From positions 1-39,217 of IMG/VR virus record IMGVR_UViG_3300031857_000506: a DNA stretch of 39,217 nt. One strand, written 5' to 3'. Below, one piece after another: positions 8,298 through 12,662 of the stretch. Origin of the DNA: a virus. The notes under the pieces are model-generated. The model was given only the letters and a program-made list of their open reading frames with translations. It was not told the DNA's origin and searched no databases. A program made the translations under genes and the position numbers. Within the stretch, counting starts at the first letter, position 1, and the number at the start of each line of letters is the position of its first letter.

Positions 8298-8514
8298 CTT
8301 CTATTTTTTTTAGTTCATTGAAAAGTCCACCAAGCCAAAGGTACATATCATTACCGGTTAATTCGTACAATCTCTTGTTAATCAGACGCATCAAGAAATA
8401 ATCTCTCCTGTATTTGTCTTTTGGCTTGTATACACCTTTTTTCTTGGGGTATTGGCTGTCACCAGCAAGCATTTCATGCCTTAGGCTCCGCAGGTGCTGT
8501 AACTCGGTCGACAT
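8284..8514 (-). CDS. Small basic helical protein of unknown function
   Basis: From the ATG at 8514 the product has 76 residues: an amphipathic helix (STELQHLRSLRHEML), a Lys/Tyr-rich linker (KKKGVYKPKDKYRRDY) and a C-terminal helical part ending LKKIEDGQN. Another candidate start is the ATG at 8472, one base after the stop of the DnaA-like gene, giving 62 residues. The spacing favours 8472 and the helix favours 8514. It overlaps the next gene by 14 bases. Its position directly after the DnaA-domain gene hints at a linked role. Confidence 0.5.
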   Translation of the reverse strand: MSTELQHLRSLRHEMLAGDSQYPKKKGVYKPKDKYRRDYFLMRLINKRLYELTGNDMYLWLGGLFNELKKIEDGQN

Positions 8515-8998
8515 CGACGGAGTAGGCGGCAAGGATATCGGGATTCCGTTCATTGAAAAAATCTAATAAAAGTTCTTGTTTAGTTGGATCAAGGTCAGCA
8601 ATAAAGTGACGAATTTTATTTCGGCGTACCGCATTGTAGCTGTAATCACCCTTTATGGTTTTCATTGCATGACATACAGTTGCGTGGTCTTTATTCACTG
8701 TTCTAGCAACTTCTGCTAGGCTTTTCGTTGAACACACTTTTACTGCCGTTACATACATTTGACGAGCAAGAACAACATCTGCAAATCTCTTATCGCTTTT
8801 AATGTCAGCGGTTGGTACTTCGAAGTGCTTGCTTACCTTTTCTAAGATGTCGTTTTCGTGTGGATTATCTACCTTGTGGAGGTACTCGTAAATCTTTGTG
8901 AATTCGGCCCGTCTTGCAAACGGAACCATTTCTACTAGGTCTTTGAATGTGTATCTCATTTGTTCGTTTGGTTTAAGCCGTGGCGGGTTTGCTTGCAT
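8474..8998 (-). CDS. DnaA domain IV-like DNA-binding protein (no AAA+ domain)
   Basis: Residues about 50-118 of this 174-residue protein read like the C-terminal DNA-binding domain of DnaA: ILEKVSKHF, an IKS(D/x)KR segment, the VVLARQMYV helix, SLAEVARTV and the signature KDHATVCHA (103-111), which matches (R/K)DHSTVxHA of DnaA. That signature contacts DnaA boxes (TTATNCACA type). The whole protein is too small to hold the AAA+ ATPase. It could mark a phage origin, recruit host DnaA or compete with it at its sites. It lies between the SSB-like gene and two small genes in the replication transcript. Confidence 0.75.
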   Translation of the reverse strand: MQANPPRLKPNEQMRYTFKDLVEMVPFARRAEFTKIYEYLHKVDNPHENDILEKVSKHFEVPTADIKSDKRFADVVLARQMYVTAVKVCSTKSLAEVARTVNKDHATVCHAMKTIKGDYSYNAVRRNKIRHFIADLDPTKQELLLDFFNERNPDILAAYSVDVDRVTAPAEPKA

Positions 8999-9743: not shown

Positions 9744-11684
9744 TTATTCCCAGGCCTCTTTGTAGCCGTTCGGGTGATCTATTTCTTCATTCCACTCCTT
9801 TGCTTCTTTTGAGTCAGTCCAACTTCTGTTTGGCTTAATTACAGAGGGCTTTGGTTCTTCCATTGTAGCTTGTACATACTTGCCATCAATCGCTTGTTGC
9901 AGGTAGTCCACTCCATCAAAAGTAAACCTTCGAGTGTTCCTCTGTAACTGGAACTCAAAGAAGCCCTTTATACCCACGATCTTTTGTCGTCGGATCTTCT
10001 TACTATGGAACTCGCAGATAGGGCTTTCTGGGGCTGTCTGAGCGAACGGACGGTGGTATATGAGAATGTTGTCAGCCTTGTTGTTCCACATTGCTCCGTC
10101 GGCAAGGTCAAATACTTCTGGGCATGGATAGTTACCGTCATCTCCCTTCCTCATTTTGTGTGGGTGAACCACTATGTCGAAGTACACGTTGTTCTTTCTG
10201 GCAAAACGGGTGCAGTCAGATAGAAACGTCTCCAGGTACTTGTCGCTGCGTCCTCCTCCCTTCGTGTAATCATTTGCCATCTGGTTGAACGGGTCGATGA
10301 TAACTCGCTCTACTCCATGCTTTACGATGAGGGTAAGGAATACCTCCTTAACGTATTCAGGAGTAGGGCTTACACTTTTAGGGTAAACCATAAATATGTG
10401 TTCTCCAATCATTTTATACACTTTCATGTACGCTTCGTATGACGGGCGGTTGGGGTTGTTGGGTGTGCAGTCTTTTCCAAAGTAAATTTCGACCAGGTCG
10501 TGGTAAAACTGCTCTGCTGGTAATTCTTCAGGCGTGAAAATGGCAACCTTTTCTCCAAATTTCACGATTCTAAAAACCATCTCCCACTTCATAAACGACG
10601 ACTTTCCGTAATTTCCAATTCCGGAAACAATTGTTAAGTCACCCTTCACACGTTTGAAGTGTTTGTCGAGTTGCGGAACCCCTAACGGTTGAGCTGCCCT
10701 GTATCCGTGGAGGTATATGTCGGACGCCTGTTCTATAACTTCCTCCGCATAAATCACGTCATTCGCCGCAATATTCGCCGCATCTTCTGCGGAGATTACG
10801 ATGTCAACCTCCAGTCGGTTACTCTTACTAACCAACTGGTCTTTGGTGAACTCGGCTGTATTCCATTGATTCATGTTAGCCCTGTATGCGCTACGTATCG
10901 CTTGTCTGCATTCACGTTGGCTAAAACTAGCGTCAGGCACAACATAGGTCATCATCATGTTGTAGCATGTCTCCTCAAGCATCCCGAACCGGCAGCAACT
11001 TGCAGCTAACTTGAAAACAAAGTGGTTCCTTTCTCCTTCTCGGAACGCATCTCCTTTGGATGTCATCCAGGTCAAAAGGTTCTGGAATATCTTGTCGTCG
11101 TCGTTAATCGTTTCTGTGGCTGTCTGTTGTGGTGATCTTTTATCGGCCTTCTTTACGGGTAATTTAGAGTAAACCTCAGCATTCGGATTGTAGTAAAGGT
11201 CTGGATCGTATGATTCAAAGCATAAACGAGAAACATTCCTACCCGTTTTATCAATGTCCGGAAAATCATTCATTAAGGCATCAAAATGCTCCTTATGCAT
11301 GGTTTTCCATTCAATTTGGACCAAAGCCTTTAATCCTTTCCCAGAAGGCGACACCCAAACAGCCGCAATGTGCTTTATATGACCCAATTCATTTCTTTTT
11401 TGGGTTATATTTGGGACATTATCGAAATCAAGTACGATGTACCCGGAGTGTTCGATAAGTTCAGAATCCTTGCGTTTATTAAAAAGACCACTGAAACAAA
11501 CCGCTGGAAGTTTCTTCTTTAGTTCGTCCGCCTCTTTTTTGGTCTTGGCTTCCCTCGCCTTCTCGACAAGCTCCTTTGATTTTCCAGTCCGAATTCGTTC
11601 AAGTGCGCCCACCACAGTAATTTGGTGTCCTTGCAGGTCATTGAAGTCTTTGTAAATTGAAATCTTACCATGTGTTGTTATCAT
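9744..11684 (-). CDS. Primase-helicase: BT4734/VirE-N-like domain plus DnaB-like helicase
   Basis: This 646-residue protein has two parts. Residues about 10-175 match the BT4734/VirE-N type domain, an archaeo-eukaryotic primase-like fold: LDFDNV (85-90) gives the acidic metal site and SPSGKGLK (112-119) a nucleotide-binding loop. A helical linker at about 200-275 resembles the PriCT region. The helicase core follows: GIGNYGKSS Walker A (355-363), FTPEE (383-387), VIIDPFNQM Walker B (461-469), VVHPHKMRK (505-513) and a DNILIYHR arginine-finger segment (538-545), as in DnaB and Twinkle. It would unwind DNA and prime synthesis at the phage fork. It overlaps the initiator gene by 20 bases. Confidence 0.85.
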   Translation of the reverse strand: MITTHGKISIYKDFNDLQGHQITVVGALERIRTGKSKELVEKAREAKTKKEADELKKKLPAVCFSGLFNKRKDSELIEHSGYIVLDFDNVPNITQKRNELGHIKHIAAVWVSPSGKGLKALVQIEWKTMHKEHFDALMNDFPDIDKTGRNVSRLCFESYDPDLYYNPNAEVYSKLPVKKADKRSPQQTATETINDDDKIFQNLLTWMTSKGDAFREGERNHFVFKLAASCCRFGMLEETCYNMMMTYVVPDASFSQRECRQAIRSAYRANMNQWNTAEFTKDQLVSKSNRLEVDIVISAEDAANIAANDVIYAEEVIEQASDIYLHGYRAAQPLGVPQLDKHFKRVKGDLTIVSGIGNYGKSSFMKWEMVFRIVKFGEKVAIFTPEELPAEQFYHDLVEIYFGKDCTPNNPNRPSYEAYMKVYKMIGEHIFMVYPKSVSPTPEYVKEVFLTLIVKHGVERVIIDPFNQMANDYTKGGGRSDKYLETFLSDCTRFARKNNVYFDIVVHPHKMRKGDDGNYPCPEVFDLADGAMWNNKADNILIYHRPFAQTAPESPICEFHSKKIRRQKIVGIKGFFEFQLQRNTRRFTFDGVDYLQQAIDGKYVQATMEEPKPSVIKPNRSWTDSKEAKEWNEEIDHPNGYKEAWE

Positions 11685-12321
11685 CTTGAATAGGTGTTTG
11701 TTTTATTGTTTTCGTTTGTGTTTCGTCTTCCCATCTTCTATCGCGAAGATATCGAACAGGATCCTTCCAGTATTTGCGTTCGCGACCCGATTTGTGGTTA
11801 TCCATGCCTTCAACTGCTAGGATTCTGTCATCAGCGGATAGTTTGTTCCAAACAGCTAGAGTTTGTTTCTTGTCCACCTTCTTGTCGTAAGCAATCCAAA
11901 ACTGCTCGAAAGTATATTTATATGTTATTTCTTTCTTTGTATTATCTATATATGTAGTGGCGGGTTTTCGGATATCGGGTTTTCCGCAATCCGTTAATCC
12001 GCTTTCCGGTAATCCGATTTCCGTTGGTTCGTAATAAACCACATAATTAAATCCGCGAGACAGGCCATCGCTTCCAATCATCCTAACTGAGTGTATATAT
12101 CCCAGCACTTCTAGTTCATCCCAAGCGCTTGATATAGAGTCTTTACCATCTAAGAAATAGTCTGTCAACTTACTTTTGTATATCACCCAATCGGGAGGTA
12201 GAGATAGCAGAAAAGACAAAAGACCTTTAGCCTTTAGGCTTATTGACTTGTCCCTTAGAAATTCAGTAGGAACCATTGCGAAAGGCACGTTCCTGGTTTT
12301 AACAATTTGTCCTGTATTCAT
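11665..12321 (-). CDS. Replication initiator/replisome organiser with winged helix
   Basis: The 218-residue product begins with a helix-turn-helix module (residues about 10-85: FAMVPTEFLRDKSISLKAKG, then LSLPPDWVIY and KDSISSAWDELEVLGYI). This pattern occurs in phage O-like and DnaD-like initiators. A variable linker precedes a C-terminal part (FEQFWIAYDKKVDKK, then KYWKDPVRYLRDRRWED) typical of replisome organisers that load a helicase. The next gene downstream is the helicase, overlapping by 20 bases. The start codon lies only a few bases beyond the T run of the RNA element at 12327-12426. Confidence 0.75.
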   Translation of the reverse strand: MNTGQIVKTRNVPFAMVPTEFLRDKSISLKAKGLLSFLLSLPPDWVIYKSKLTDYFLDGKDSISSAWDELEVLGYIHSVRMIGSDGLSRGFNYVVYYEPTEIGLPESGLTDCGKPDIRKPATTYIDNTKKEITYKYTFEQFWIAYDKKVDKKQTLAVWNKLSADDRILAVEGMDNHKSGRERKYWKDPVRYLRDRRWEDETQTKTIKQTPIQDDNNTW

Positions 12322-12326
12322 AAAAT

Positions 12327-12426
12327 AAAAAAAGCCCGCAAGAGCAACTTCGCGGGCCTAATTTGGTAAAAGTTCTACTTTACCGAGGCATCCGAAGCCT
12401 AGTTTGCTGTTGCTCTATAACAAACT
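12327..12426 (-). ncRNA. Four-hairpin RNA element with 8-bp loop-loop pairing and terminator-like end
   Basis: Read on the minus strand, 100 bases fold into four hairpins: H1 AGTTTG/CAAACT (12401-12426), H2 AGGC/GCCT (12386-12400), H3 GGTAAA/TTTACC (12365-12384) and H4 GCCCGC/GCGGGC (12334-12357). H4 is followed by seven U's (12327-12333), as in an intrinsic terminator. The 14-base loop of H1 contains AGAGCAAC (12409-12416) and the 12-base loop of H4 contains GTTGCTCT (12341-12348). They are perfectly complementary over 8 bases, so the outer hairpins could kiss. The U run ends 6 bases from the ATG of the initiator gene. It could be a small RNA, an attenuator of the replication operon, or an origin structure. 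A weak promoter-like TAGTTTGT overlaps the H1 5' arm. Confidence 0.6.
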
Positions 12427-12470
12427 ACGCTTGGAATATTTGGCAAACATAAAACAACCACGCGAGGTTG

Positions 12471-12662
12471 TCAAGGGTTTTCTCCATTATTTTTTATGTG
12501 CCATGTCTCACACTCCCAGCACATATAGACTTGCTGGTCGTAATCACAGTATTCCTCGGCCTCCTTTCGAGTCTTGTAACATCTTTTACCACAGCCATAT
12601 ATGGAATTCTTAATCATAAATGTAAGGCACGATATAACGAGTATGATTGAAACGATAAACAT
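12471..12662 (-). CDS. Membrane-anchored zinc-ribbon-like protein
   Basis: The 63-residue product has an N-terminal hydrophobic helix (FIVSIILVISCLTFMI) followed by CGKRCYKTRKEAEEYC and, later, YMCWECETWHI. The paired cysteines and the TRKEA and CxxCxxWHI patterns resemble a small zinc ribbon that I recall in soluble form in many phages. A shorter start at an internal Met (MIKNSIYGCGKRC) would remove the membrane helix. The promoter at 12667-12696 lies only 4 bases before the first ATG, implying a leaderless message if 12662 is correct, or supporting the shorter start. Confidence 0.55.
   Translation of the reverse strand: MFIVSIILVISCLTFMIKNSIYGCGKRCYKTRKEAEEYCDYDQQVYMCWECETWHIKNNGENP

Follow-up and report, generated by a model that had tools for sequence, protein, structure and literature searches.

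A phage replication-operon leader whose first hairpin and predicted terminator carry complementary, co-changing loops

Introduction

The phage leader RNA analyzed here resembles several described systems in part. With pT181-type attenuators it shares a leader RNA that carries an intrinsic terminator ahead of the gene for a replication initiator, loop-loop kissing, which starts the pT181 interaction, and loop identity, which there sets orthogonality; in orthogonal pT181 attenuators the loops set specificity (PMC4878617). The phage P4 CI RNA and seqA-seqC likewise belong to an untranslated leader of a phage replication operon, with self-complementary segments and premature termination, and this short RNA is derived from the operon's own transcript and is complementary to a leader segment (PMC4825925). 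Kissing loops upstream of a replication gene also occur in the I-complex/IncK RNAI-SLI system, in which a single base change in RNAI can alter compatibility (PMC10724649). The prohead RNA (pRNA) of phi29 is likewise small and phage-encoded, and its two loops, as in the leader, are complementary without being palindromic (PMC7357161); GOLLD and ROOL are also structured bacterial RNAs, with known homo-oligomers according to the accessible part of the source (PMC12286853).

The initial annotation of this locus knew of no class with its layout, and our searches agree. A literature search found no description of a kissing-loop rep-leader element, and at Rfam 15 gathering cut-offs there was no match in the window, by which we mean the whole 39,217-base stretch of DNA analyzed (virus record IMGVR_UViG_3300031857_000506). 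Searched against Rfam at E values up to 10, the rep-leader locus reached at best 38.8 bits, on the reverse strand, against a cut-off of 99 bits; the site-2, far-clade, and second-group loci described below returned only a tRNA in L143, and the Rfam covariance model of phi29 pRNA gave no match. Isolated phages showed no DNA match except a 26-nt chance match. The element is absent from the first 50 kb of each of two protein relatives, Maribacter phage Panino and Flavobacterium phage elemoE, and from the Bacteroidota MAG contigs in which distant primase relatives sit.

Results

A compact leader unit precedes the replication initiator gene

The window is probably a fragment of a 60- to 70-kb Bacteroidota phage; its longest relatives measure 59 to 70 kb, primases distantly related to its own occur in Bacteroidota MAG contigs, and the promoter-like sites show the form TTG-N-TAnnTTTG. 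On the minus strand, positions 12443-12322 form a compact unit of predicted Bacteroidetes-type promoter, leader, terminator, and rep ATG; covariance model R1 matches the leader RNA over these positions at 102.8 bits. The features are as follows.

12444 to 12474, minus strand: predicted Bacteroidetes-type promoter TTGAC-N-TATGTTTG (-33/-7), with a TTGACA/TATGTT pair scoring 10/12
12334 to 12437, minus strand: leader RNA of about 105 nt from predicted start to terminator, both ends placed from sequence
12398 to 12430, minus strand: hairpin 1 (HP1), an 11- to 12-bp stem with a 10-nt loop (RNAfold; two-sided stem changes in relatives)
12409 to 12415, minus strand: kissing sequence K1, GAGCAAC, in the HP1 loop (8-nt version AGAGCAAC, 12416-12409)
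12365 to 12399, minus strand: variable spacer hairpins GGCTTCGGATGCC (12399-12387) and GGTAAAGTAGAACTTTTACC (12384-12365), from RNAfold and alignment
12334 to 12357, minus strand: intrinsic terminator hairpin GCCCGCGA-A-GTTGCTC-TTGCGGGC (RNAfold, sequence, covarying stem)
12342 to 12348, minus strand: kissing sequence K2, GTTGCTC, the K1-complementary stretch within the loop of the terminator (8-nt version GTTGCTCT, 12348-12341)
12322 to 12333, minus strand: U run TTTTTTTATTTT, with a seven-T run (12333-12327) 5 bases before the ATG at 12321
11665 to 12321, minus strand: replication initiation protein gene, 218 aa (PHROG 270, E 5e-19), directly behind the terminator

The -7 box TATGTTTG is one that we take to match the TAnnTTTG consensus, and the putative start of the leader was placed about 7 nt past it. 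This promoter is almost unchanged in most clade-1 relatives. At its other end the window leader has the GC-rich hairpin followed by a U run that is expected of an intrinsic terminator; promoter and terminator activity are both predictions. The initiator is the first gene of the replication operon, with the primase/helicase (9744-11684) next, and the RNA sits beside the replication genes, as initially annotated, between the promoter-like site and the initiator ATG. Two other proteins encoded nearby on the minus strand may be mentioned. A small cysteine-rich 63-aa open reading frame (ORF) (12471-12662) lies just upstream of the leader, and its TGA stop overlaps the -33 box. The replication operon also encodes a 174-aa protein (8474-8998) whose DNA-binding domain is that of the DnaA C terminus (PF08299, E 1e-16); DnaA-box-like sites may thus be where this phage recruits replication.

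On the minus strand, AGAGCAAC in the HP1 loop is perfectly complementary to GTTGCTCT in the terminator loop, and the 8-base complementarity originally reported between 12409-12416 and 12341-12348 was correct in sequence and coordinates. RNAfold gives the window leader HP1, two small middle hairpins, and the terminator with its U run, at a minimum free energy of -32.8 kcal/mol (z -2.78; 1 of 200 shuffles equally good); taken alone, this fold is only moderately unusual. As for K1 targets in trans elsewhere in the window, GAGCAAC is no commoner than expected (3 occurrences versus 4.2 expected).

Loop complementarity is kept across relatives

We gathered approximately 150 loci through Rep and primase homologues and cut leaders from upstream of rep. 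In nearly all of these rep leaders the HP1 loop is complementary to the terminator loop, often with other sequences, the loop types being GAGCAAC/GTTGCTC, GAACCAC/GTGGTTC, GAGTCAC/GTGACTC, GTAAGGC/GCCTTAC, GTGGAGT/ACTCCAC, GTAGAGC/GCTCTAC, GTACGAGC/GCTCGTAC, GGACTAGC/GCTAGTCC, and AGTAAGGAAT/ATTCCTTACT. The clade-1 alignment holds 41 distinct leaders, the first of which (L002) is identical to the window, and in clade-1 relatives the rep ATG lies directly behind the terminator U run. All seven pairs of the clade-1 loop helix form in 41/41 leaders (100% standard cells), with two-sided changes at three pairs (19, 1, and 20 cells) and with no one-sided changes and no G-U pairs. The eight pairs of the terminator stem are likewise paired in 100% of cells, four of them with two-sided changes; the HP1 stem covaries, two-sided changes preserving its pairs; and the spacer hairpin P2 is paired in 86% of cells. 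When partners were slid by 1 to 3 columns as a control, paired cells of the whole structure fell from 96% to 35 to 50% among the 41 leaders. Covariation in stems and loops, proposed with the initial annotation as a check, is thus seen as two-sided changes in HP1, the terminator, and the loop helix. The four-hairpin layout described there agrees with the RNAfold structure of the window, but most relatives have one middle hairpin (P2) where the window has two. Because the middle hairpins vary, four hairpins are not a defining feature; the conserved core is HP1, P2, and the terminator together with the loop-loop pairing.

A phylogeny-aware covariation test confined to clade 1 ranked the kissing pair 35-106 first of 6,441, with an E value of only about 0.08, since the tree of leaders calls for few changes. 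What carries most weight is the variety of loop types rather than clade 1 taken by itself. When a covariance model was made of HP1, P2, and the terminator, with the loop pairs left out, it found the far relatives L143, L146, L044, L144, and L121 at E values of 4e-8 to 2e-5, and the loops of these far-clade leaders all match their own partners. (Opposite-strand covariance-model matches beside the leader were put down to these hairpins being read in mirror image and rejected as a second element.) For 18 distinct loop types, with loops taken from folding alone, own-partner complementary runs of 6 to 10 nt sum to 145 nt; in 100,000 permutations of partners the maximum was 98 nt, and none reached the own-partner sum. 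Loop-blind model and folding-derived loops are both non-circular checks of the pairing.

A detector that demands a terminator loop complementary over at least 7 nt to the loop of an upstream hairpin was run over both strands of 2.61 Mb. It returned 54 distinct matches, whereas control loops gave 0 when reversed and 2 when merely complemented, and the matches beyond the window's three loop types were all either the rep-leader element or a second RNA of like design. In total, about 60 distinct members of the RNA family were seen; L068 and L148 (7 and 6 nt of loop complementarity) were left uncounted as possible chance cases. Terminators before genes are common, and the fold z of the window is only -2.78, as might be expected if an ordinary terminator stood beside unrelated hairpins whose loops matched by accident. 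The detector scan, the permutation test, and the two-sided changes among 41 fully paired leaders refute that explanation, to which we give next to no credence, and the original judgment that chance pairing is unlikely stands. Neither outcome that the initial annotation had named as adverse, loops without covariation or an ordinary terminator with unrelated hairpins, was found. These patterns show that K1 and K2 co-evolve and that strong selection maintains their complementarity. A separate observation concerns the rep-side leader of L139 (4277-4392), in which TTGCAACATGA, at the putative 5' end of the transcript, and TCATGTTGCAA, in the loop of its terminator, are complementary over 11 nt; as a single case, this complementarity is suggestive only.

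Loop types switch repeatedly and independently of Rep type

On a tree built from 250 nt upstream plus the leader minus its loops and terminator, the loop type switches at least nine times, both loop sites changing together each time, and well-supported branches alone force three to four switches. Two loop types are nearly equal in frequency (21/41 and 19/41) among otherwise similar phages, and one metagenome (3300042691) holds phages of both types (L003, L004). The leader and terminator hairpin of the sisters L012 and L119 differ only at 2+2 loop bases (GAGTCAC/GTGACTC versus GAGCAAC/GTTGCTC), while L052/L053 and L059/L060 show differences in both loops and part of the terminator stem. Cassette recombination and compensatory mutation probably both contribute to this switching.

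The replication initiator (11665-12321, minus strand) is itself a mosaic: its C-terminal part is common, and its N-terminal part is of very different types in phages with 85 to 94% identical primase. Loop type is independent of Rep type: the Rep of L003 is 93% identical to the window's and its loops are different, and L017 has the window's loops with a Rep 57% identical. This independence bears on whether K1 and K2 might be facing DNA sites for a binding protein, such as an origin-bound initiator, that change together with its specificity. As such an account would have it, they form an inverted repeat with a spacing of about 60 bp, next to the gene of a replication initiator with different N-terminal types. 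However, loop type does not follow Rep type, which argues against Rep-binding repeats; K1 and K2 are found invariably in hairpin loops, the hairpins being conserved and on the strand that bears the promoter and U run; and a second site in the same phages adjoins a different gene and has other sequences. We consider DNA repeats a very improbable explanation.

A related arrangement was observed in L064, L065, L066, L070, and L072 to L078, where rep leaders of another shape lie upstream of rep and follow the same pairing principle. Rep in this group is like the window's in the N-terminal part only, and the matching primase is absent. The leaders have a 5- to 6-bp hairpin with the loop GGGAAAC, GGGGAAC, or GTGGAAC (three types), and the complementary strand is carried inside the terminator hairpin; in the drawn structure each of the 22 pairs is paired in 100% of cells, and 2 of the 7 loop pairs are changed on both sides. 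The principle of a first hairpin loop and a terminator strand before rep thus occurs in at least two scaffolds.

A second RNA of like architecture lies beside a ninB-like gene

The covariance model matched a second site in two phages, adjoining a ninB-like gene. The RNAs at this site are the following.

L226, 1013 to 1127, minus strand: second RNA of like architecture
L227, 1010 to 1124, plus strand: second RNA of like architecture
L228 to L241: further second RNAs of like architecture

The second RNA is present in 12/18 records with a located ninB-like gene; the window fragment stops short of this locus, and a further stretch of approximately 290 kb, drawn from 16 phages, contained no third genomic site. 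It has its own TAnnTTTG promoter, a conserved HP1 (TTCTCACATTGCA...), a spacer hairpin, and a GCCCTCG/CGAGGGC terminator. Each of eight loops (GTCTGGTAG, GTCTGGCTGG, GTCTGACGG, GTTGGAGAG, CTGGCACC, GTCTGGTAC, GTGTAGAGAG, and TGTTTGACGG) matches its own terminator loop over 8 to 10 nt; a further loop, in L237, pairs with a single G-U, and the loops differ from the rep-leader loops of the same phage. The site thereby adds about nine mutually different loop pairs on a conserved scaffold. Loops were compared directly, since MAFFT gaps the two loops differently in the site-2 alignment. Stems show 0.03 to 0.13 differences per site, and the two loops show 0.34 and 0.29, versus 0.31 in the unpaired spacer, with complementarity kept. 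Because these loops vary like the spacer, diversifying selection on them is suggested, not proven.

An ATG directly follows the second RNA in three phages (L226, L240, and L241); in the others there is no gene behind it on that strand, and in most phages it is therefore a free-standing unit. A short ORF beginning MYHGLKSV or MYYGLKSV lies directly behind the second RNA in L226 (759-1013, minus strand, 84 aa) and L240 and is missing there in other phages. The second RNA also qualifies the initial proposal of a switch into the replication initiator gene: the terminator directly before the rep ATG fits such a switch, but with an RNA that usually lacks a gene behind it this may not be the whole story, and attenuation cannot be the only role of the second RNA.

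Such stand-alone promoter-to-terminator units would also be expected if the RNA itself were the product, assembling into dimers or rings by intermolecular K1-K2 kissing in the manner of phi29 pRNA or the ROOL and GOLLD RNAs, with loop identity barring mixed assemblies when cells are co-infected and the place before rep incidental. Complementary non-palindromic loops on one RNA would allow head-to-tail assembly, as in pRNA (PMC7357161), and the stems are conserved (5' arms 0.03 to 0.04) while the loops are variable (0.29 to 0.34). Against this, the clade-1 terminator stands immediately in front of the ATG of rep, a layout that recurs in another group, the partner loop is that of a transcription terminator, and pairings of 7 to 10 bp far exceed the 4 bp of pRNA. 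The window phage, moreover, has an ordinary large terminase. All this makes assembly as the primary function rather improbable. We presume from its large terminase that the window phage does not use a phi29-type motor.

Discussion

Our preferred reading, held tentatively, is that the phage leader RNA is a kissing-loop attenuator of the replication operon, the pairing most likely setting the frequency of read-through by analogy with known attenuators. Early transcription from the promoter near 12450 would produce HP1, the spacer hairpin, and the intrinsic terminator, which would stop transcription just before the initiator ATG and free an RNA of about 105 nt, so that rep and the primase would be expressed only by read-through. 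K1 and K2 would kiss over 7 to 8 bp, and their pairing would set the read-through probability. The released leader could then pair with, or compete on, nascent leader copies, and the operon might thereby respond to its own RNA dosage while remaining largely blind to phages of another loop type, much as with plasmid copy-number and incompatibility RNAs. Regulation, action in trans, and the direction of the effect are all argued here from analogy.

How loop pairing would alter termination without an antiterminator is not obvious. When the 41 leaders were truncated ahead of the terminator 3' arm and folded, nothing upstream paired consistently with the 5' arm, and 16/41 had no such partner at all. 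The lack of a consistent competitor argues against exchange of the pT181 type, where the initiator gene is presumably repC, and a classic strand-exchange antiterminator was rejected. Without strand exchange, kissing would have to alter the speed or firmness of terminator hairpin formation, or else join RNAs; at approximately -9 to -16 kcal/mol overall, the loop duplexes are strong enough for either route.

Because close relatives exchange loop pairs yet stay complementary, we infer that RNA copies may pair with one another. The repeated switching of loop identity is like that of RNA loops that set specificity (PMC10724649, PMC4878617), which favors self-sensing in trans. A purely intramolecular role is almost as likely as a trans-sensing element. 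In that case HP1 would kiss the terminator loop within one molecule, tuning the terminator or shielding a small RNA from nucleases, and the loop changes would be neutral compensatory drift plus recombination. The partners are always in one RNA, where local concentration is high; K1 and the terminator are tightly spaced (45 to 60 nt among the leaders compared); the 7-bp pairs of clade 1, L044, and L121 have similar energies (approximately -9 to -10 kcal/mol); and site-2 loops change no faster than spacer. A difference of four loop bases alone between L012 and L119 would, however, be odd for slow compensatory drift, as would two loop types about equally common among similar phages. We rate action in cis only somewhat below the trans-sensing reading. 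The more far-reaching version of the attenuator reading is an undescribed class of phage small RNAs that occupy two sites per phage, each with a loop pair of its own. The first hairpin would kiss the terminator of its own transcript, the loop pair would serve for self-recognition and be exchanged rapidly, and the released RNA would control termination of nascent copies of its own type in trans. We hold this combination to be possible but less likely than not.

As a new structured RNA family, the element offers an unusually clear case of compensatory evolution in a tertiary contact, one that joins the loop of a 5' hairpin to that of an intrinsic terminator. Should loop pairing govern termination, the element would attenuate without any strand-exchange antiterminator. 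If loops recognize copies in trans, apparently virulent phages would have a plasmid-like RNA compatibility system, and the novelty could be categorical; were the loops a true self-recognition tag, co-infecting relatives of another type would not interfere, making this an RNA-only system of copy number or superinfection compatibility. Nature offers about 18 loop pairs whose scaffolds are alike and most of which cross-pair little, so the question is directly testable, and the pairs are ready-made parts for RNA circuits.

Set against known systems, the phage leader has both loops in one RNA, whereas in pT181 the antisense RNA is a separate molecule and an antiterminator strand takes part (PMC4878617). 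P4 is lysogenic and uses a processed antisense RNA, whereas the leader has two hairpin loops and an intrinsic terminator (PMC4825925); a PF00589 search of 20 records, of which some were fragments, turned up no integrase, which makes prophage immunity of the P4 type unlikely. The IncK antisense RNA comes from the opposite strand and acts in translational control (PMC10724649), whereas the phage element ends in a terminator, and on the opposite strand within the leader no Bacteroidetes-type promoter was recognized by eye. The phi29 pRNA pairs intermolecularly over 4 bp, is part of a packaging motor, and has another secondary structure (PMC7357161), whereas the partner loop in the phage RNA is that of a terminator. 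GOLLD and ROOL are large and ornate, as far as the accessible part of the source describes them (PMC12286853), whereas the phage RNA is about 105 nt and was unrelated to them in any test run. Nearest in function are the pT181-type attenuators, the P4 CI RNA, the IncK antisense loops, and the phi29 pRNA, and the leader is a member of none of these. Its parts, namely kissing loops, intrinsic terminators, and RNA control of replication initiators, are already known; what is new to us is their combination, the occurrence at two sites with separate loop pairs, and the co-exchange of the loops of a 5' hairpin and its own terminator.
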